Positions 56,320-64,000 of a DNA stretch of 64,000 bases are shown one piece after another. This stretch comes from an uncultured Flavobacteriaceae bacterium (GTDB taxonomy: Bacteria; Bacteroidota; Bacteroidia; Flavobacteriales; Flavobacteriaceae). Position numbers and translations under genes: made by a program. Where the stretch lies: the NCBI GenBank assembly GCA_947502975.1, contig CANNBV010000007.1, positions 1 through 64,000 of the forward strand, read 5' to 3'. The notes under the pieces were generated by a model. The model searched no databases. It saw only the letters and a program-made list of their open reading frames with translations, and was not told the origin of the DNA. Every line of letters starts with the position of its first letter. Position 1 is the first letter of the stretch.

Positions 56320-57399
56320 TTATGGGCGTAGAGCCACTTTAAGTGTCCCTGACTTACGATCACGCATTAAATCATAGCCCTTTTCTGCTTCCGATAGTGG
56401 TAAAATATCAGTGAAAATTACACTAGGGTCAATAACACCTCTTTCTACTATAGGAAGTAGTTTTTCCATATATGCAGCTACATTTACAACTCCCGTATGA
56501 ATCGTTATATTTCTGAACAACGCTGATGAATAGGGTTGCTCAACAGGTTCATAAAGATGCCCAAACCCTAGTACACTTATCGATGCACCAGCCTGGGTCA
56601 TTTCCATACCTTGTGTAATAGCCGTTTTATTACCTACAGAATCGATTACCGAATTTGCACCTCGCCCTTCTGTAAGTGATTTTACAAATGCTACAGGGTC
56701 TTCATTTTTTGAATTCACGACATGGGTAGCTCCAATAGTTTTCGCCAATTCTAATCGGCTATCATGACGTCCTACCAAAATAATAGTAGAGGGTCCGAAT
56801 AATGTAGCCGCCATTACTGCGCTAAGGCCTACTGCACCATCTCCAATAACTACTACAGTTTCTCCTGTTTTAATATTTGCATTTAATGCACCGTGATAGC
56901 CTGTAGCAAAATTATCTCCCAGGGGAAGAACTTTGGTATCATGTTCATCTCCAGTTAAACCTTCTGGAAGTTTAAATAATGAAGAATTACCGTAAGGAAC
57001 ACGTATAAATTCGGCCTGACCTCCTTGGATATCATCACCTCCATGTTGGGCAAATAGGGGAGTTCCAAACAAACCTCCATGATCACATGCCGAAGGTAAA
57101 TCGCGTTTGCAATAGTAACAATCGCCATCAACAAACATAGCTGAAGCGATAACACGGTCTCCAACCTTTAACGAATGGATATCTTTACCTACTTGGTCTA
57201 CGACACCAACAAATTCATGGCCTATTCGCATCCCTTTAAATAAACCCATTTCCGGTCCGTTTTGGGTAAATTCTAAATCTGCACCGCAAACCCCTGCAAG
57301 TGTAATACGTACAATTACATCATCATCTTTTAATAATTGTGGTTTTGGTATATCTACGACTTCGATTTTGGCTCGTTCCTTATATACTACTGCTTTCAT
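56320..57399 (-). CDS. Zinc-dependent alcohol dehydrogenase family protein
   Basis: 359 residues of the medium-chain dehydrogenase family. Catalytic zinc ligands lie in LAGVCGADLEF and RIGHEFVGVVDQVG; structural-zinc Cys residues lie in CYYCKRDLPSACDHGGLFG (a Cys/His-type variant of the four-Cys lobe). The Rossmann motif is VVVIGDGAVGLSAV. It oxidises alcohols or reduces aldehydes with NAD(P). Fnr-like palindromes lie 81-189 bases upstream, just after the gene of a Crp/Fnr regulator. Confidence 0.93.
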   Translation of the reverse strand: MKAVVYKERAKIEVVDIPKPQLLKDDDVIVRITLAGVCGADLEFTQNGPEMGLFKGMRIGHEFVGVVDQVGKDIHSLKVGDRVIASAMFVDGDCYYCKRDLPSACDHGGLFGTPLFAQHGGDDIQGGQAEFIRVPYGNSSLFKLPEGLTGDEHDTKVLPLGDNFATGYHGALNANIKTGETVVVIGDGAVGLSAVMAATLFGPSTIILVGRHDSRLELAKTIGATHVVNSKNEDPVAFVKSLTEGRGANSVIDSVGNKTAITQGMEMTQAGASISVLGFGHLYEPVEQPYSSALFRNITIHTGVVNVAAYMEKLLPIVERGVIDPSVIFTDILPLSEAEKGYDLMRDRKSGTLKVALRP

Positions 57400-57479
57400 A
57401 ATAACTATTTACTTTTTATTTTTAAAAGAATACAGCTTAGTTTTATAGAACTAATGTCAAATAAAACTTAAACTAGTAT

Positions 57480-57496
57480 TTGTCAATTATTGACAA
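57480..57496. promoter_or_regulatory. Perfect palindrome TTGTCAA-tta-TTGACAA upstream of the alcohol dehydrogenase
   Basis: 7-bp arms with a three-base centre, 81-97 bases before the dehydrogenase ATG. Arms are related to the TTGA half-sites of the two Fnr-like boxes further upstream. Well placed for an activator of the Crp/Fnr superfamily. Confidence 0.55.
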
Positions 57497-57543
57497 GACA
57501 AAATTGCCTCATAATTGAAAAAGTAAATATGACATGTATTAAG

Positions 57544-57567
57544 AAAAAAGCTTGACCTATATCAAGC
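57544..57567 (-). terminator. Possible terminator of the Crp/Fnr gene, overlapping an Fnr-like box
   Basis: On the minus strand GCTTGA-tatagg-TCAAGC is followed by six T (57549-57544), 26-49 bases after the Crp/Fnr stop. The same bases form the Fnr-like box TTGACCTATATCAA (57552-57565), so the hairpin and the DNA site cannot be told apart from sequence. Confidence 0.5.
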
Positions 57568-57574
57568 AATAAAA

Positions 57575-57588
57575 TTGATATAAATCAA
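57575..57588. promoter_or_regulatory. Fnr-type box TTGAT-ATAA-ATCAA
   Basis: Exact match to the Fnr consensus TTGATnnnnATCAA, only four bases past the stop codon of the Crp/Fnr gene, 176-189 bases upstream of the dehydrogenase ATG. A second near-match starts ten bases further on (57552-57565). Confidence 0.5.
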
Positions 57589-57592
57589 TTTT

Positions 57593-58168
57593 TTAAGATT
57601 TTGAACGGATTCTACTTATTGATTCTGGAGAAATGCCTAAGTAGGATGCTAATACGTACTGTGGAACTCTGTTTGCTATTTGGGGGTATTTATTAACATA
57701 CTCCCAATATCGCTCTTCTGAGGTTTTACTAATATTAGAAATGGTTCTTTTATAAGAATGAGCCATAGATCTTTCTGTAAATAATCTAAAATATTGACAT
57801 AATGAATGTATTCTACTGCAAAGTTCTTCAACATCTTCGTATTTCATTTGTAGAATTAGAGAATCTTCAAGTGCTTCAGCATAATATTCTGCTGGAGTTC
57901 TATTTAAATAACTGTAAAAGTCTGTGAAAAACCAATCCTCTATTGCAATAATTACTGTGTGCTCTTTTCCAGAGTCATCTAAATAGAAAACTCTAACTGC
58001 ACCTTCTACAATATAATTTCTATATTCAGACACAAACCCAGGCTGAACAATAAATTGTCTTTTCTTTACTCTAGTGGTTTTTAATATTGAAATAAACTCC
58101 TCAATTTCACTATCTGATAATTCAACATATCTGGCTATGTGATCCAATATTCCCTTGTATATACTCAT
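57593..58168 (-). CDS. Crp/Fnr family transcriptional regulator
   Basis: 191 residues. The N-terminal cyclic-nucleotide-binding-like beta-barrel (about 20-115; QFIVQPGFVSEYRNYIVEGA, DWFFTDFYSYLNRTPAEYYA) precedes a short winged helix whose recognition helix is QYVLASYLGISPESISRIRS at the very C-terminus. There is no N-terminal Cys cluster, so it is not an oxygen-sensing Fnr of the classical kind. Fnr-like boxes follow its stop and precede the dehydrogenase gene, its likely target. Confidence 0.92.
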   Translation of the reverse strand: MSIYKGILDHIARYVELSDSEIEEFISILKTTRVKKRQFIVQPGFVSEYRNYIVEGAVRVFYLDDSGKEHTVIIAIEDWFFTDFYSYLNRTPAEYYAEALEDSLILQMKYEDVEELCSRIHSLCQYFRLFTERSMAHSYKRTISNISKTSEERYWEYVNKYPQIANRVPQYVLASYLGISPESISRIRSKS

Positions 58169-58250
58169 TGATTCATCTTGTTTTTGCTACACTAATAACT
58201 TTTAATAATTAGATGATTTTTTCATTTTTGTTCAGGTTTTCTCAAATGTG

Positions 58251-58384
58251 CTATAACTTGTTTATGTATGATTTCGTTGCGTTTAACAACTAAGATAGCA
58301 AAAGGGCACGAATCTGAGGGGAATTCGGAGAATTTTCCGATTGGCAGATAGAAACCCTACCAATTAACTATATACGGTGTTGGC
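58251..58384. repeat. Cassette-boundary-like palindromic element B
   Basis: Non-coding region between the Crp/Fnr gene and the VOC block. Shares gtatgattt...gttgcgt near its left end and tatatacggtgttggc (58369-58384) at its right end with element A. The middle has a gggaattc-gga-gaattttcc hairpin at 58319-58337, matching in position the aaaattcc-agc-ggaatttt hairpin of A. Nothing coding is seen in 58169-58250. Confidence 0.55.
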
Positions 58385-58422
58385 CGTAATGCTTATTTTA
58401 CAAGTTCCATATATATTACTAT

Positions 58423-58785
58423 TTAGTTTTCTCTACAAAAGGTGTTATGAGTCCAATTTGTATTACCTGCTACAACTTCAAACCAAGCAAAAGTTCGATT
58501 ATCAGGAAGTGTTATAGGTTTGACTAGTACTTTTCCTTTATTTAATTCAATCATTTTTAAGTTAGATTTTAAAGAATCTGTTTCTATATAAATCGTCACA
58601 TATTTTTGAGACTCACCACTCCCTAATTTATTTAAGTGTCCAGAAATACCATCCATTTGTTGATTAATAATTGTAGCAGAATTTCCTTTTTGTTCTATTT
58701 CCCAATCAAAAACATTCTTATAGAATTCTGAAGTTTTTTGTATGTGGCTACAGCCAATTTCAAAATGAATTACTTTCTTTCCCAC
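58423..58785 (-). CDS. VOC (glyoxalase/dioxygenase) family protein
   Basis: 120 residues, single VOC domain with GTG start at 58785 (MGKKVIHFEIGCSHIQKTSE). Paired beta-alpha-beta modules are recognisable (YKNVFDWEIEQKGNSA; KVLVKPITLPDNRTFAWFEV). Expected metal ligands are the His near the N-terminus and Glu in AWFEVVAG. Substrate unknown. First of three VOC genes on one strand, twelve bases after the next one. Confidence 0.87.
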   Translation of the reverse strand: MGKKVIHFEIGCSHIQKTSEFYKNVFDWEIEQKGNSATIINQQMDGISGHLNKLGSGESQKYVTIYIETDSLKSNLKMIELNKGKVLVKPITLPDNRTFAWFEVVAGNTNWTHNTFCREN

Positions 58786-58797
58786 AAGGTTTTGTTT

Positions 58798-59343
58798 TTA
58801 CTTGAAATTTAGTTGCCAAGACACACCAAATTTATCCTCAATAAAAGTAAATTTCGTGCTGAAACCATAATTATCTATAGGCATTAAAATTTTTCCATTT
58901 TCCGACAGTTTTACAAAAAGATTTTCAATTTCATTGTCTGTTTTGCATTCAACCCAAATTGAAACTCCAGGCGTGAATGTCCATTCGTGCTTCATATAAC
59001 TATCGCTACACGCAAATTTACTACCATTCAACTCGAAATTAGCAACCATAATTGTTCCCTCTTTTGCGGGTCCGTCTTTTCCGTATCGCTGAATATTGGT
59101 GATTTTTGAATTCTCAAATAATTCTACATAGAAGTTCATAGCTTCTTCAGCATTACTTTCTTGGAATGTTAAAAATGTTGCAATTTGTGATTCTGTAACA
59201 CTTGGTATATCGGCTTTCAATTTTTTTAAGCTATCAAGTTCAGTTCGTAATTCGTTTAATTCTTTATTATGATCAGTTTGTTTACGCTTAGAACAACTGA
59301 ATGTGAGTAATACTAGTAGTAGTACAAGTGTAATTCTATTCAT
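58798..59343 (-). CDS. Lipoprotein with PhnB-like VOC domain
   Basis: 181 residues. An N-terminal lipoprotein signal (LVLLLVLLTFSCSKRKQ) and a short coiled-coil stretch (KELNELRTELDSLKKLK) precede a PhnB-type VOC domain (ATFLTFQESNAEEAMNFYVE, IMVANFELNGSKFACSDSYM, IEDKFGVSWQLNF). PhnB-like proteins are normally cytosolic; export as a lipoprotein is unusual. After Cys come basic residues (SKRKQ) rather than an acidic surface signal, so periplasmic anchoring is more likely than surface display. Confidence 0.85.
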   Translation of the reverse strand: MNRITLVLLLVLLTFSCSKRKQTDHNKELNELRTELDSLKKLKADIPSVTESQIATFLTFQESNAEEAMNFYVELFENSKITNIQRYGKDGPAKEGTIMVANFELNGSKFACSDSYMKHEWTFTPGVSIWVECKTDNEIENLFVKLSENGKILMPIDNYGFSTKFTFIEDKFGVSWQLNFK

Positions 59344-59359
59344 TTTCTGATTTTTTATT

Positions 59360-59755
59360 TTATAACATTTCGACTATTTGTATGTGATTACCACAAGTAT
59401 CGTTTAAAATAGCAAATTTTACCGTACCCATTTCTGTTGGTTTTACGCTAAATTCTACACCAAGGTTGACAAACTTATCATAGTCTTCTTGGACATTCTC
59501 TGAATTAAATTGTGTCCAAGGAATACCTGCATCAAAAAGTGCTTTTTGAAAAACTTTAGCTGGCTCAAAATGATTTGGTGCAGGTTCTAACAAAATTTCA
59601 ACTCCGTCTTGCTCTTCTTTGCTTACAACGGTTAACCATCTGCTGTCATTGCCTACAGGCATATCTACCTTTTTAAGAAAACCTAACTTTTTAGTATAAA
59701 ACTGTAATGCTTTTTCTTGGTCTTGAACAGGTATACTTAATACTTTCGCTTTCAC
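59360..59755 (-). CDS. VOC family protein (glyoxalase-like)
   Basis: 131 residues with a GTG start at 59755 (MKAKVLSIPVQDQEKALQFY). One VOC domain: FYTKKLGFLKKVDMPVGNDS, SKEEQDGVEILLEPAPNHF and a C-terminal AILNDTCGNHIQIVEM with the conserved Gly-Asn-His. Likely metal-dependent lyase or resistance-type protein, substrate unknown. Sixteen bases before the lipoprotein VOC gene. Confidence 0.88.
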   Translation of the reverse strand: MKAKVLSIPVQDQEKALQFYTKKLGFLKKVDMPVGNDSRWLTVVSKEEQDGVEILLEPAPNHFEPAKVFQKALFDAGIPWTQFNSENVQEDYDKFVNLGVEFSVKPTEMGTVKFAILNDTCGNHIQIVEML

Positions 59756-59801
59756 TTTCTTATATTTTTAAAGATTGATTTTGCAAATTCTAAAAAAATA
59801 A

Positions 59802-60194
59802 TTAATCCGACTTTGCGAAAATTGCCTTTTTTTGAAATTCAGTTGGTGTAAGCCCAACACGTGATTTGAACAAAGTGCTAAATGAACTAGGGCTTTCAAA
59901 GCCGATTTCAAAACAAGTATCGGTTATTTTTATTCCTTTTTTTAGTAACTTTTTAGATTGCTCTATGCGCTTTTCGATTATATATTGCTTTGGAGTTTGC
60001 CCATAATACTTTTTGAATAATCTAATTAAATGAAATTTTGAAGTAAAATGTATACTTGAAAGCAAGTCCAAATTCAATTCTTTCTCAAAGTTGCTATTTA
60101 TATAATTACGTATTTTAATTATAGTTTTAAGCTGTACTTTGTTAGAGTAACATTCCTCTTTTATTCGGGCTATTTCTTTAAGGTAAAATGTCAT
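59802..60194 (-). CDS. AraC family transcriptional regulator (DNA-binding domain only)
   Basis: 130 residues. It is essentially the two helix-turn-helix AraC domain (about 25-125: NLDLLSSIHFTSKFHLIRLF, YGQTPKQYIIEKRIEQSKKL, CFEIGFESPSSFSTLFKSRV, GLTPTEFQKK) with no effector-binding domain. Usual partner of VOC genes as a small SoxS-like activator. First gene of the VOC operon, 46 bases before the next start. Confidence 0.9.
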   Translation of the reverse strand: MTFYLKEIARIKEECYSNKVQLKTIIKIRNYINSNFEKELNLDLLSSIHFTSKFHLIRLFKKYYGQTPKQYIIEKRIEQSKKLLKKGIKITDTCFEIGFESPSSFSTLFKSRVGLTPTEFQKKAIFAKSD

Positions 60195-60228
60195 ATTCGT
60201 CGTTTACTATGTCATTTATTACGTTACC

Positions 60229-60361
60229 GCCAACGTTGTGTTGTGTATGACTTAGTTGCGTGTTTAAGCAATAAAGTTAGCAAACAAATCACAGATAGAA
60301 AATTCCAGCGGAATTTTTGTAAGTAAGCTGGAACTAGCAGTATATTATATACGGTGTTGGC
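60229..60361. repeat. Cassette-boundary-like palindromic element A
   Basis: 133 bases bounded by gccaac (60229-60234) and gttggc (60356-60361). Inside are two overlapping hairpins: aaaattcc (60299-60306) with ggaatttt (60310-60317), and ccagc (60305-60309) with gctgg (60327-60331). Right end tatatacggtgttggc is shared with element B. General layout resembles integron attC sites, but the ends do not fit the RYYYAAC/GTTRRRY consensus. Confidence 0.6.
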
Positions 60362-60370
60362 AACAGTATT

Positions 60371-60466
60371 TTATTTTTTCGAATATTCTTTTTCAATCAT
60401 ATAATTTTCAAAGCCCTCATATGACATATCAAAAAACTTTCCCACCAAGTATATAGTGATCAATAG
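60371..60466 (-). pseudogene. C-terminal remnant of an unknown gene
   Basis: Ending at the TAA at 60371, ten bases after element A, a minus-strand frame of about 31 codons reads LLITIYLVGKFFDMSYEGFE then NYMIEKEYSKK before meeting an upstream TAG. The composition is protein-like and unlike the surrounding AT-rich spacer, so it may be the tail of a lost cassette gene. No start codon and no recognisable family. Confidence 0.35.
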
Positions 60467-60469
60467 CTA

Positions 60470-60705
60470 ATGTTAGTTAGCGCATTTATAATTCAGAAAA
60501 CTTATGTTTTAAATGAGTATTTTTTTACAAAAAAGTGCCCATATTAAAAAATAAATATTAATTTTATAACTCTCCTTTGTAATTAATTTTTTTAATAAAA
60601 TACCTTGTATTGGGTATTTTATACAATATATCAAACTGGTACTTTGTGGTATTGTTTGTGCTATATCTATTAATCACCGTTTGTTAACTTTTCAAATTAA
60701 TAAAT
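60470..60705. other. AT-rich leader region of the S8 protease gene
   Basis: No gene and no exact TAnnTTTG promoter box. Several T-runs, a TA-rich stretch with short inverted repeats (attgggtattttatacaat) and a partial match tactttg at 60641-60647 are the only features seen. Confidence 0.4.
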
Positions 60706-63024
60706 ATGAAATCAGTTATTGTATACTTCATGCACGAAGATGAACTATCTTTTGCAAGTAATCTATTAAGTGATACAAATATCACTAATAGTTTTATAAT
60801 GGGGAAGGCCTCTCAGTCTGACATTAAAAAGATGAGGCAAAAAGGATTAGTTGTCCAAGAACTTGAGAAAAAAGAAACAGAGTTCGGTTTGCAAAAAGTA
60901 AAATGGAAACACAAAAGTTACCAGAATAGAGAAATATCAGATAATCTTTCAATTGGAGCTGAAGAATTAGGTTCGGTAATAATGGGAGTTGGTGATCCTA
61001 TTTCTCATAGTGGTGACACCATTGCATTAGCAACTATAGATTTAACAGGAGAAAATTATTTTTTAATAACTTTAGTAGGACCACTAATAGATCAGTGGAA
61101 AAAAACTTTAAATAATATTGATGTTGAACTTCTAGAGTGTACAAATAATTTTGAATATAGAGCAAAACTTAGTTTTGATAATTTACAAGATTTAAAAGAC
61201 CTAGATTTTGTAAATAATGTTTCCTTGATAGATCAAGGCATTACAAATATCATTACAGAATCAGCTTTGAGTACTTCAGGTGATAATAGAACTGGTAAAA
61301 AAATTCTAAAATTTGATTTGATACTTCACGAACCTTCCAATACAGATAAAGTTCTTGATTGGCTTAAAGATAATAGTATAAGAGTTGAAGGGTATTCAAG
61401 AAATAAAATACGTGTTTATTTACTTCAAGACTCACCTTATATTACAAGTATAGTTGGATTAAAAGAAGTTTCTAGAATAGAAGAGTATATAGAGCCTAAA
61501 TTATTTAATGACAAAGCACGTTTGCTATTAAATTTGGACAAGAATCAAAGTTCAACAGTTAATTTATTAGGCTATCAAGGTGACGGCGAAATTATTGGTA
61601 TTGCCGATACTGGAATTGATGATTCGCATAATGATTTTAAAAACAGAATTTCAAGAATATTTTCCTTAGGAAGGATGAATGATTATTCAGATCATCATGG
61701 TCATGGTACACACGTTGCTGGATCTGTTTTGGGAGATGGAGCGGAATCTGGAGGTAAATATAAAGGAACGGCACCAAAAGCTAAATTAATCTTTCAATCT
61801 TTGATGGATAGTCGTGGAGGACTTGGTGGTTTACCAATACATTTAGGGGACTTATTTGATGAGGCATATCAATTAGGTGCTAGAATACATAACAACAGTT
61901 GGGGGGCAGCCACTAACTCAAGGTACACTATTAATTCAACAGAAGTTGATGAATATGTTGACCAGAATAGAGATATGCTGGTCTTATTTGCAGCGGGCAA
62001 TGAAGGAGCTGCTAAAAATAATTTAAATGCTGCAGTTGGTTTTGTAGATTGGTTATCCATTGGTTCTCCTGCAAGTAGTAAAAATGCACTCACAGTTGGT
62101 GCAAGTCGATCTAATAGAACATCAGGAGGAATTTCACGTCTCACTTACGGTCAAGCATGGCCAAATGATTTTCCAGATCCTCCAATTGCTGATGAAAAAA
62201 TTTCAGGAAAGGCCACAAGTATAGCTGGATACAGTAGTCGAGGCCCATGTGATGACGGACGTATAAAACCAGATATTGTTGCACCAGGAACAGATATAGT
62301 GTCAACTAAATCTTCTATTGCATCAATAGGTAACTTTGATGGTAGTGTTAGAGGCACTAGGAAATATGCCTTCATGGGAGGAACAAGTATGGCTTGCCCT
62401 TTAGTATCTGGTTGTGCTGCAGTTGTTAGAGAATATTATAGAAAAGAAAAAAATAATGATACTCCTAGTGCTTCTCTTGTAAAAGCCACGTTAATAAATG
62501 GCACAAAAGAATTACAGTCTCAAGATGCTATGTCTCCTTATAATATTATTCCTAACTTTCATCAAGGTTTTGGTCGTGTAGATATGGTGAATACTATTCC
62601 AAATTCTGGGAATAATAATCTCAAACTTGCTTACATTGATAATTGGAAGAACCCTTTATCTCATTTTAATAATACAGGTGACCGAAAAAGATATACAATT
62701 AGTGTAGGTGACAAACTACCTTTCCGAGTATGTTTATCATATATAGATTTGCCAGGTAGAGCACTTCAAAATAATTTAAATTTAATAGTAGAGTATAATA
62801 ATAATGGCAATAGAATAAAACAAATTGGGAATGAAGCATTTACTAAAACCCCAGGAAACTATAGTATACCCGACACTAAAAATAATATTGAGATTGTTAG
62901 AATAAAAAATCCTAAACCAGGTAATTTTTTAATTCAAGTCTTTGCTTTTAATCTTTTAAGAGGAGGGCAGGATTTTTCTTTAGTAGTAACAGGTGATTTA
63001 AGAAGTGATTTAATAGAAATATAA
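60706..63024 (+). CDS. Cytosolic S8 (subtilisin-like) serine protease with two I9-like N-terminal modules
   Basis: 772 residues with no signal peptide (MKSVIVYFMHEDELSFASNL). The catalytic triad is D301 (GIADTGIDDSHND), H333 (HHGHGTHVAGS) and S561 (GGTSMACPLVSG), with oxyanion N432 (FAAGNEGA). Residues 1-280 contain repeats that read like I9 propeptide folds (LSFDNLQDLKDLDFVNNVSL and YITSIVGLKEVSRIEEYIE). A C-terminal beta-sandwich domain (about 635-772; KLPFRVCLSYIDLPG) is typical of larger subtilases. No T9SS domain, so it probably acts inside the cell. The next gene starts one base after its stop, so both form an operon. Confidence 0.93.
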   Translation: MKSVIVYFMHEDELSFASNLLSDTNITNSFIMGKASQSDIKKMRQKGLVVQELEKKETEFGLQKVKWKHKSYQNREISDNLSIGAEELGSVIMGVGDPISHSGDTIALATIDLTGENYFLITLVGPLIDQWKKTLNNIDVELLECTNNFEYRAKLSFDNLQDLKDLDFVNNVSLIDQGITNIITESALSTSGDNRTGKKILKFDLILHEPSNTDKVLDWLKDNSIRVEGYSRNKIRVYLLQDSPYITSIVGLKEVSRIEEYIEPKLFNDKARLLLNLDKNQSSTVNLLGYQGDGEIIGIADTGIDDSHNDFKNRISRIFSLGRMNDYSDHHGHGTHVAGSVLGDGAESGGKYKGTAPKAKLIFQSLMDSRGGLGGLPIHLGDLFDEAYQLGARIHNNSWGAATNSRYTINSTEVDEYVDQNRDMLVLFAAGNEGAAKNNLNAAVGFVDWLSIGSPASSKNALTVGASRSNRTSGGISRLTYGQAWPNDFPDPPIADEKISGKATSIAGYSSRGPCDDGRIKPDIVAPGTDIVSTKSSIASIGNFDGSVRGTRKYAFMGGTSMACPLVSGCAAVVREYYRKEKNNDTPSASLVKATLINGTKELQSQDAMSPYNIIPNFHQGFGRVDMVNTIPNSGNNNLKLAYIDNWKNPLSHFNNTGDRKRYTISVGDKLPFRVCLSYIDLPGRALQNNLNLIVEYNNNGNRIKQIGNEAFTKTPGNYSIPDTKNNIEIVRIKNPKPGNFLIQVFAFNLLRGGQDFSLVVTGDLRSDLIEI

Positions 63025-63025
63025 T

Positions 63026-64000
63026 ATGGCGACCCTAAAAATAATACAGGCAGAGCATGGTGATTGTTTTTTATTGACTTTTGATAAAAACGGAAATAAT
63101 AAAAATATGCTCATTGATGGAGGGCCAAGAGGAACCTACAGAAGGCATCTGAAAGACATATTGTTAAATGTTAATTCAAAGAATGAAATTCTTGACTTTG
63201 TAGTACTTAGTCATGTTGATTCAGATCACATTAGTGGACTCTTAGATTTATTATTTGAATTAGAAGAGCAAAGAGTTAATGGCGAACAAGAAGTGGTTGC
63301 AATAGATCAAATTTGGGCAAACACATTTCAGAATACTATTGGAGCTAATAATGATATCGTTAATAGGTTTCAAGCAGTGATGTCTACAGTTAATAATATG
63401 GAATCTGTTATGAGTAATTCTGCAATTGAAGTTTTAGGAATTAATCAAGGTAATAAGCTACGTATCCAAGCCCTTAAACTAGATATTGATTTAAATAAAG
63501 GGTTTGATGATGAACTCATTTCTATTGACACTGCAACAGACACTCTAGAAGAAGGAGAACTTAAAATTACTATGCTTGGACCAAGTAAAGAAAACCTTGA
63601 GGAGCTTAGACTAGAATGGATGAAATGGCTTGAAAATAATGAAAATGCCATTATGAGTGGAGATTTTGACGTAATGGCAAATGCAGATAAATCCAAGCCT
63701 AACTTAAGTAGTATTATGTTTTTAGCTGAGGTAAATGGAACCACTATATTGTTTACAGGAGACGGGAGAAGCGATCATTTGTACGATGCCTTAGAATCTC
63801 AAAATCTATTGGATAGTGAAGGCAAAATACATTTAGATTTTTTTAAAGTACCTCATCATGCTAGCAATAGGAATACCACTAAAACTTTTCTGAAAAAAGT
63901 AACAGCAGATAAATATATTATCTCTGCAAATGGAAGACATCACAACCCGGATTTAGCAACTCTAATTTGGTTAGTTGAAAGTGCAAAACAACGTAATGCA
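63026..64000 (+). CDS. ComEC-type metallo-beta-lactamase-fold hydrolase (partial, C-terminus beyond window)
   Basis: 325 codons visible from ATG 63026 (MATLKIIQAEHGDCFLLTFD), still open at 64000. The metal-binding loop is H63-V-D65-S-D67-H68, the HxDxDH variant found in ComEC-like MBL domains; further ligands appear as TGDGR (D246) and VPHHAS (H277, H278). An insertion at about residues 80-190 separates the first motif from the later ones. No signal peptide or membrane segment so far, so a soluble cytosolic hydrolase, perhaps acting on nucleic acids or nucleotides. Coupled to the S8 protease. Confidence 0.88.
   Translation, partial: MATLKIIQAEHGDCFLLTFDKNGNNKNMLIDGGPRGTYRRHLKDILLNVNSKNEILDFVVLSHVDSDHISGLLDLLFELEEQRVNGEQEVVAIDQIWANTFQNTIGANNDIVNRFQAVMSTVNNMESVMSNSAIEVLGINQGNKLRIQALKLDIDLNKGFDDELISIDTATDTLEEGELKITMLGPSKENLEELRLEWMKWLENNENAIMSGDFDVMANADKSKPNLSSIMFLAEVNGTTILFTGDGRSDHLYDALESQNLLDSEGKIHLDFFKVPHHASNRNTTKTFLKKVTADKYIISANGRHHNPDLATLIWLVESAKQRNA

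Follow-up and report, generated by a model that had tools for sequence, protein, structure and literature searches.

Why should the gene of an apparently cytosolic subtilase (peptidase family S8) abut that of a ComEC-like metallo-beta-lactamase (MBL) protein in an uncultured Flavobacteriaceae bacterium? The window, by which we mean the whole stretch of DNA analysed, comprises the opening 64,000 bases of a contig 202,565 bases long (CANNBV010000007.1 of assembly GCA_947502975.1, hereafter contig C7), and the two genes stand at its right end, both on the + strand. By open reading frame (ORF) reading, the MBL gene starts at 63026, a single base past the S8 stop, as the first-pass annotation of this DNA had stated, and runs to 64132 on the contig, beyond the window end at 64000, encoding 368 residues. 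The same annotation had put the pair forward as a candidate defence or conflict system made of a protease and a nuclease-like effector. Our analysis leads us to favour, at somewhat better than even confidence and by analogy with nucleases that are unlocked by proteases, a more specific reading, that of a nuclease module made of these two genes, activated by the subtilase and probably serving abortive-infection (anti-phage) defence.

A conserved pairing across bacterial phyla

The pairing itself was observed repeatedly. A tblastn search of plasmids with the MBL protein alone returned 45 records, all below 60% identity, and in each of the six best matches (H1-H6) an S8 gene, split in H4, lies just 5' of the MBL gene. 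Eleven lower-ranked matches were opened: four are caspase-linked (H15, H18, H23, H27), two stand beside annotated ABC-three-component (ABC-3C) genes (H13, H20), H17 is Avs1a, H21 precedes a NACHT gene, H11 has hypothetical neighbours only and was placed with ABC-3C by gene sizes, and H7 and H14 carry no annotation. A scan of GTDB genomes, for which seven S8-linked MBLs were aligned to form the query, confirmed 206 relatives, of which the best 80 loci were kept, a sample that by its query and its selection leans to the S8-linked branch. An S8 gene is directly upstream of the MBL gene in 71 of these 80 loci (69 by script, plus L044 and L062, two pairs that the script missed owing to over-long ORF starts and that were recognised by inspection); two of the 71 have weak S8 matches, one cut by a contig end (L036) and one scoring 27 bits (L059). 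The nine others are L037, L038, L041 (cut off), L046, L047, L049, L050, L053, and L098. When the window and the plasmids are included, scripted pairs amount to 76 of 87 and cover ten named bacterial phyla. Pairing is far above chance, and the scattering of single homologues, which the first-pass annotation had named as evidence against its reading, is not what we find.

A tree was built of 97 MBLs. Its S8-linked branch, of 87 rows (25 bearing the label type A, 54 the label type B, and eight without adjacent S8), is separated with full support in the Shimodaira-Hasegawa approximate likelihood ratio test (SH-aLRT 100) from ten MBLs that are Avs1a, linked to ABC-3C, NACHT or a caspase, or unassigned. 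Type B forms one clade (95), type A together with the eight MBLs lacking an adjacent S8 forms another (97), and phyla are intermixed. Type A, the kind found in the window, was counted in 24 pairs (L044 being omitted by the script), whose complete S8 proteins measure about 740-870 residues. The spacer between the two genes is 0-130 bp with a median of 20 (24 pairs, MBL starts placed by alignment), and S8 and MBL distances agree across 22 pairs (Mantel r 0.86, p 1e-4). The type A pair often stands by itself, with no same-direction gene within 100 bp on either side in 14 of 24 cases; such a neighbour occurs upstream in seven and downstream in five, one of which is gene C of the present locus, and a few flanks are cut short by the end of the locus. 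Nine of these 12 neighbours were scanned: five are recognisable and mutually unrelated (Wzi, acyl-CoA dehydrogenase, LysM/L,D-transpeptidase, CHAT, and a weak STAND), and the remaining four gave no Pfam match. With the N-terminus of the type A protease of L026 as query, plasmids yielded no match.

Type B comprises 52 pairs with a different S8 and more frequently a third gene; among 49 third genes scanned, 14 patatin and five Tle1-like phospholipases were recognised, that is, in up to 19 of 52 pairs. Type B loci (L010-L015, L055-L102) include alphaproteobacterial plasmids and Streptomyces, and pYEATS occurs once among the third genes. The S8 profile built for type A gives the 52 type B proteases a median of 51.8 bits (0-83), against 62.4 for another S8 in L058 and 14 and 17 for two IetS-like proteins; by this scoring, and against a control set as small as this, no special kinship of the two S8 types appears. 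Because the type A profile scores type B proteases no better than another S8, these sequence comparisons suggest that subtilases were recruited separately in the two types. Within a Chloroflexota sub-branch of the type A MBL clade the partner seems to have been exchanged for a clostripain (L037, clostripain C11 and CHAT) or a caspase (L038, with an amidase upstream and the caspase downstream), and in L053 the order is MBL-phosphoesterase-CHAT-S8, a type A S8 standing two genes away from the MBL. L049 and L050 carry identical MBL genes in metagenome-assembled genomes labelled Thermoplasmata and Asgard archaeon, which is likely a matter of binning error or contamination.

Predicted architecture and known relatives

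The first-pass annotation described a subtilase with a complete catalytic triad and no signal peptide, and both points were verified, the triad in the sequence and across aligned type A proteases (Table 1), the second by a hydropathy scan: among the first 45 residues of S8, the highest Kyte-Doolittle mean of any 12-residue stretch is 0.49, compared with 2.2-3.1 for four downstream proteins, and by this simple scan neither S8 nor the MBL protein has a strong membrane span. The AlphaFold2 model of S8 (mbe5298a3a947; mean predicted local distance difference test, pLDDT, 79) begins with three ferredoxin-like units, which are followed by a catalytic domain resembling that of KP-43 and, at the C-terminus, by a beta-sandwich. 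The "I9-like modules" of the first-pass annotation correspond to these three predicted beta-alpha-beta-beta-alpha-beta units, but Pfam gives no I9 match in S8, and the label is one of fold and position only. The best Foldseek match is KP-43 (1wmd; E 2e-42, template modelling (TM) score 0.89 on the target). KP-43 and SubHal share with S8 the catalytic and C-terminal domains, at 38% identity, whereas their structures (433-434 residues) span only that part; S8 of the window has three extra N-terminal modules and lacks a secretion signal. These modules are the only sensor candidates inside the pair.

The MBL protein carries the HxDxDH, TGDGR, and PHHAS motifs that had been read in it, with complete metal ligands: H63, D65, D67, H68, D246, H277, and H278 are invariant among the 27 aligned sequences, as are T244, G245, K274, and S280. 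Its best fold match is the MBL/nuclease domain of ComEC (9ic4; 3e-10, TM 0.52/0.62), near behind which come structures of a phosphorylcholine esterase (1wra, 4e-10). With respect to two ComEC structures, a sequence alignment gives 87 extra residues in the interval from HxDxDH to PHHGS, the interval that holds both stretches of low model confidence. The mean pLDDT of the MBL model is 86.7; residues around 101-140 are the least certain, 131-135 being the only segment below 50, and positions such as 105, 111, and 139 in the candidate loops are biased towards hydrophobic residues.

Table 1. Coordinates of the two genes and of their predicted parts in the window
Feature	Position	Strand	Basis
S8 subtilase gene, protease partner	60706..63024	+	772-residue ORF; Pfam Peptidase_S8 3.5e-50; Foldseek best KP-43 1wmd
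N-terminal ferredoxin-like module 1 (residues 1-52)	60706..60861	+	AlphaFold2 model, order E-H-E-E-H-E; block pLDDT 91-96 for 1-50
Ferredoxin-like module 2 (residues 116-174)	61051..61227	+	AlphaFold2 model, order E-H-E-E-H-E
Ferredoxin/I9-like module 3 (residues 200-260), directly N-terminal of the catalytic domain, in pro-domain position	61303..61485	+	AlphaFold2 model; block pLDDT 72-92
Subtilase catalytic domain; D301 at 61606, H333 at 61702, S561 at 62386	61579..62523	+	Pfam stretch 292-606; triad invariant in 24/24 aligned type A proteases
S8 C-terminal beta-sandwich (residues about 640-765)	62623..63000	+	Strands in model; KP-43 and SubHal best by sequence and fold
ComEC-like MBL protein, candidate pro-nuclease	63026..64000 (gene to 64132 on contig)	+	Pfam Lactamase_B 2.4e-10; Foldseek best 9ic4
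HxDxDH metal motif (MBL residues 63-68)	63212..63229	+	H63, D65, D67, H68 invariant in 27/27
Candidate gating loop 1 (MBL residues about 101-140)	63326..63445	+	Block pLDDT 55-70; within the interval of 87 extra residues
Candidate gating loop 2 (MBL residues about 205-225)	63638..63700	+	Milder pLDDT dip; within the same interval
TGDGR (244-248) to PHHAS (276-280) catalytic segment of MBL	63755..63865	+	Seven residues invariant in 27/27

The closest known mechanism is that of Tuck et al. 2025 (PMC12799240), who showed HamM of Hachiman and Avs1a of AVAST to be MBL pro-enzymes: two insertions keep each of them locked until a partner protease, trypsin-like in both systems, unlocks it, and a caspase does the same in Canu (CanC). 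Like Hachiman (HamM/HamAB) and AVAST type 1 (Avs1a/Avs1b), the pair combines a ComEC-like MBL of the same superfamily, extra sequence where gating loops would lie and an adjacent protease gene; unlike them, it has no helicase or STAND gene, and its protease is a free-standing S8 encoded upstream, whereas in those systems the trypsin-like domain forms part of a core defence protein whose gene lies downstream. The NCBIfam Avs1a model reaches 2.8e-55 on the MBL protein but 187.6 bits against a cut-off of 420, and Pfam scans of the downstream genes gave no STAND match that would indicate AVAST type 1 partners. Canu (CanABC) resembles the pair in that the protease gene is 5' of the MBL gene and separate from the core genes of other defence systems; it differs by a caspase, CanA, and a middle gene, where the window has a subtilase and abutting genes. 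Among PADLOC models, LmuA of Lamassu is the best match of the MBL protein (8e-62), ahead of a reverse transcriptase-associated MBL (1e-43) and Avs1a (2e-43); a Lamassu hydrolase-protease was nevertheless rejected, for no structural maintenance of chromosomes (SMC) gene lies in the 16 kb downstream (to 80000) and neither an SMC-like LmuB nor LmuC was seen near the pair. Ten of the 16 downstream genes (lettered C to R) were scanned with PADLOC, the only LmuB match being one of 23 bits in a ZorA-like coiled coil; upstream, the ORF list holds no frame above 359 residues back to 54000, a stretch where the domain scan was not run. IetAS likewise contains an S8 protease in a defence system, and the IetS model partially matches S8 of the window (1e-17; 47.3 bits in NCBIfam against a cut-off of 900); the difference is that the S8 partner here is an MBL and that no IetA ATPase was seen, the genes adjoining the pair being C, which has no Pfam match, and a 130-residue ORF that reads as AraC-like.

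The pair thus shares with gated nucleases a ComEC-like fold with all metal ligands and an adjacent, co-diverging protease gene, and departs from them in that the protease is an S8 subtilase rather than a trypsin-like enzyme or a caspase. By this analogy, it is best read as a subtilase form of the protease-activated nuclease pair. The main text of PMC12799240, in the parts available, does not mention subtilases or S8; several families of protease are labelled in its Fig. 4A and fig. S2, and the figures speak of proteases of "other diverse families", among which some S8 partners may be found. Our literature search, made at the level of listings, found no description of a subtilase-MBL pair. In Kaur et al. 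2020 (PMC7159879), S8 and trypsin domains are described on either side of a NucA nuclease, an arrangement that hinted earlier at this logic.

A proposed death switch and its competitors

Our proposal is that loop cleavage by the subtilase turns the MBL protein into a free DNase, because related MBLs are unlocked by proteases, the gene order of Canu is kept and S8 and MBL distances agree. Both proteins would be made together in the cytosol in an inactive state, the protease restrained by the ferredoxin/I9-like module directly before its catalytic domain and the MBL nuclease by a pair of flexible loops that would cover its active site. A trigger, most likely an invading phage or DNA stress that the N-terminal modules would sense, would free the protease, which would then cleave the loops of the MBL protein; the opened ComEC-like enzyme would degrade DNA, and the cell would be killed or arrested. 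It is tempting, if rather speculative, to go one step further and see in the cytosolic subtilase both sensor and switch, kept silent by its tandem ferredoxin/I9-like modules until a phage event lifts the block and the DNA-destroying partner is unlocked; the pair would then represent a widespread minimal form of two-gene immunity, for which subtilases were recruited separately in two clades. We hold this extended version to be possible, at clearly less than even confidence.

Several observations weigh against the proposed switch. The second loop shows only a mild dip in pLDDT (68 for residues 211-220, 73 for 221-230), and the MBL model is that of a single chain without metal or partner. Loop 1 has no invariant residue between positions 102 and 141 in 24 sequences, and the variable loop parts offer no standout invariant residue, unlike the Ile or Gly cut sites of the published relatives. 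Common host ancestry adds to the agreement of S8 and MBL distances, and one protease resembling those of type A occurs without an MBL (1123 residues, in genome G071, the only other match in 395 phylum genomes). This G071 protease (L155/L157) has extra C-terminal parts and no MBL match in the 15 kb fetched; it adjoins an ORF resembling a DNA methyltransferase. A scan of viral contigs yielded 17 candidates, none of them confirmed, and the phage records gave no MBL match. Finally, enrichment in defence islands, which the first-pass annotation had suggested looking for, did not emerge: the flanks of nine type A loci (109 genes) and nine control stretches of the same contigs (139 genes), compared after omission of two of 11 flanks, two of 11 control stretches, ORFs above 1400 residues, and one further long control ORF, matched PADLOC families at E 1e-15 in 21 and 13 cases, respectively, which is no clear excess, and counts of distinct proteins are about equal by eye. 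The flank matches include pAgo_II with its nuclease, IetA, and a caspase, while those of the controls look mostly like ordinary relatives (BrxL, SspA/DndA, mad3); the evidence linking the pair to defence islands is weak.

The strongest competitor would have the two enzymes act in parallel, the subtilase degrading proteins of the cell or the phage and the MBL acting on nucleic acid or on a lipid or nucleotide, under an unlinked sensor and without any cutting of the MBL. The phospholipases of type B pairs, as a third effector-like gene, speak for it, and MBL folds accept many substrates, as the proximity of phosphorylcholine esterase to ComEC in the fold search recalls. Co-divergence, abutting genes and the extra MBL sequence nevertheless fit a direct partnership better, and cleavage of the nuclease by a protease has been demonstrated in relatives (PMC12799240); we regard parallel action as unlikely.

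It is harder still to defend a housekeeping or stress role, in which the pair would clean up peptides and nucleic acids without any part in conflict. Although Wzi, acyl-CoA dehydrogenase, and L,D-transpeptidase, ordinary genes all, make up a third of the nine same-direction neighbours scanned beside type A pairs, the distribution is very patchy: the N-terminus of the protease was found in one of 248 other genomes of the family, and an MBL match, a weak one, in one of 295 other genomes of the phylum. The mixture of phyla in the MBL tree and a position next to a tRNA hotspot point away from housekeeping too, so that we give this explanation little credit.

Genomic setting and downstream genes

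The right edge of the region is marked by a tRNA-Ser gene (83790-83875), beside which lies an integrase fragment (83078-83527, Arm-DNA-bind_5). The gene just past tRNA-Ser is found in eight of 11 other genomes of the genus; in all seven genus relatives fetched, DNA similarity ends at 83715-83790 and other genes lie beyond. These seven relatives have 74 proteins past the tRNA, of which no more than two recur, in a single pair of genomes; contig C7 holds no close match to any of the 74. The tRNA-Ser gene is a variable hotspot and the pair lies in the variable region adjoining it. As to a repeat at the left edge, no word of at least 14 bases is common to 57000-61500 and 82600-84300. The first-pass view of an accessory island fits this variable region, but much of the downstream gene set turned out to be a separate conserved block. 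Its suggestion that a sensor, an NTPase, or an integrase might follow past 64000 found little: no separate sensor or NTPase gene belonging to the pair was seen there, and the only integrase seen is the above fragment, 19 kb away. Of the conflict system itself, the linkage, the MBL family and the tRNA hotspot argue in favour, and it is from these that we infer a defence function.

Gene C begins four bases past the MBL stop and, given this close spacing, may be co-transcribed with the pair, which could then be the start of a larger operon with C to H, for example the cytosolic arm of an envelope system. We consider such an operon improbable. When the proteins C to R were compared at E 1e-4 with the 32 loci that make up the type A MBL clade, no match appeared. 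C lacks a Pfam match as well; it was not found in 59 relatives, and 294 other genomes of the class, a draw that overlaps partly with the 59, gave a single weak match. Further on, beyond the window, a block in the order R-Q-P-O-N-M-L (contig C7 72242-82662) encodes, in turn, a lipoprotein, a membrane protein of small size, a tubulin-like protein, a protein of 1148 residues, one without clear match, a MotA-like protein, and a MotB/OmpA-like protein. The Pfam matches in the block are below cut-off. We read the 1148-residue protein as HSP70/FtsA-like and the lipoprotein as bearing a vWA-like motif; the MotB/OmpA-like protein is weakly ZorB-like. The block recurs in eight of 248 other genomes of the family, six keeping at least five genes and two no more than R, P, and O. 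In these eight relatives genes C to H do not accompany the block, and the pair is absent from all stretches fetched from them. We rejected on these grounds a single large system that would extend from the pair as far as the tubulin-MotA genes, the block being kept without the pair and no gene of it matching type A loci; we treat it as a separate, unnamed system, for which the literature search found no description. A toxin-antitoxin-like stabiliser of a mobile element, killing cells that lose the island rather than infected ones, would suit the island and plasmid locations, yet it is hardly credible given two large enzymes, atypical for the usual toxin-antitoxin design, and neighbours among which no labile antitoxin gene is evident.

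Two further genes of this region deserve a word. Gene E (contig C7 66388-66630), in the operon-like run after the MBL gene, encodes 80 residues rich in Cys and Lys, without Pfam match, and might be a peptide precursor. At 66794-67705 of contig C7 lies the gene of a 303-residue membrane protein matching YLATT (YEATS-like-associating three transmembrane; PF20303, 4e-10), a family tied by its name to YEATS-like proteins.

If the subtilase-activated nuclease module holds true, its meaning reaches beyond one flavobacterium. The 2025 paper (PMC12799240) presents protease-activated bacterial nucleases with trypsin-like and caspase partners; the subtilase branch, spread over ten named phyla, would add a third, unrelated protease class to protease-nuclease death cascades, and would do so as a two-gene version without a separate sensor gene. 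A pair as small as this would make the minimal machinery of a proteolytic death switch directly testable in the laboratory.

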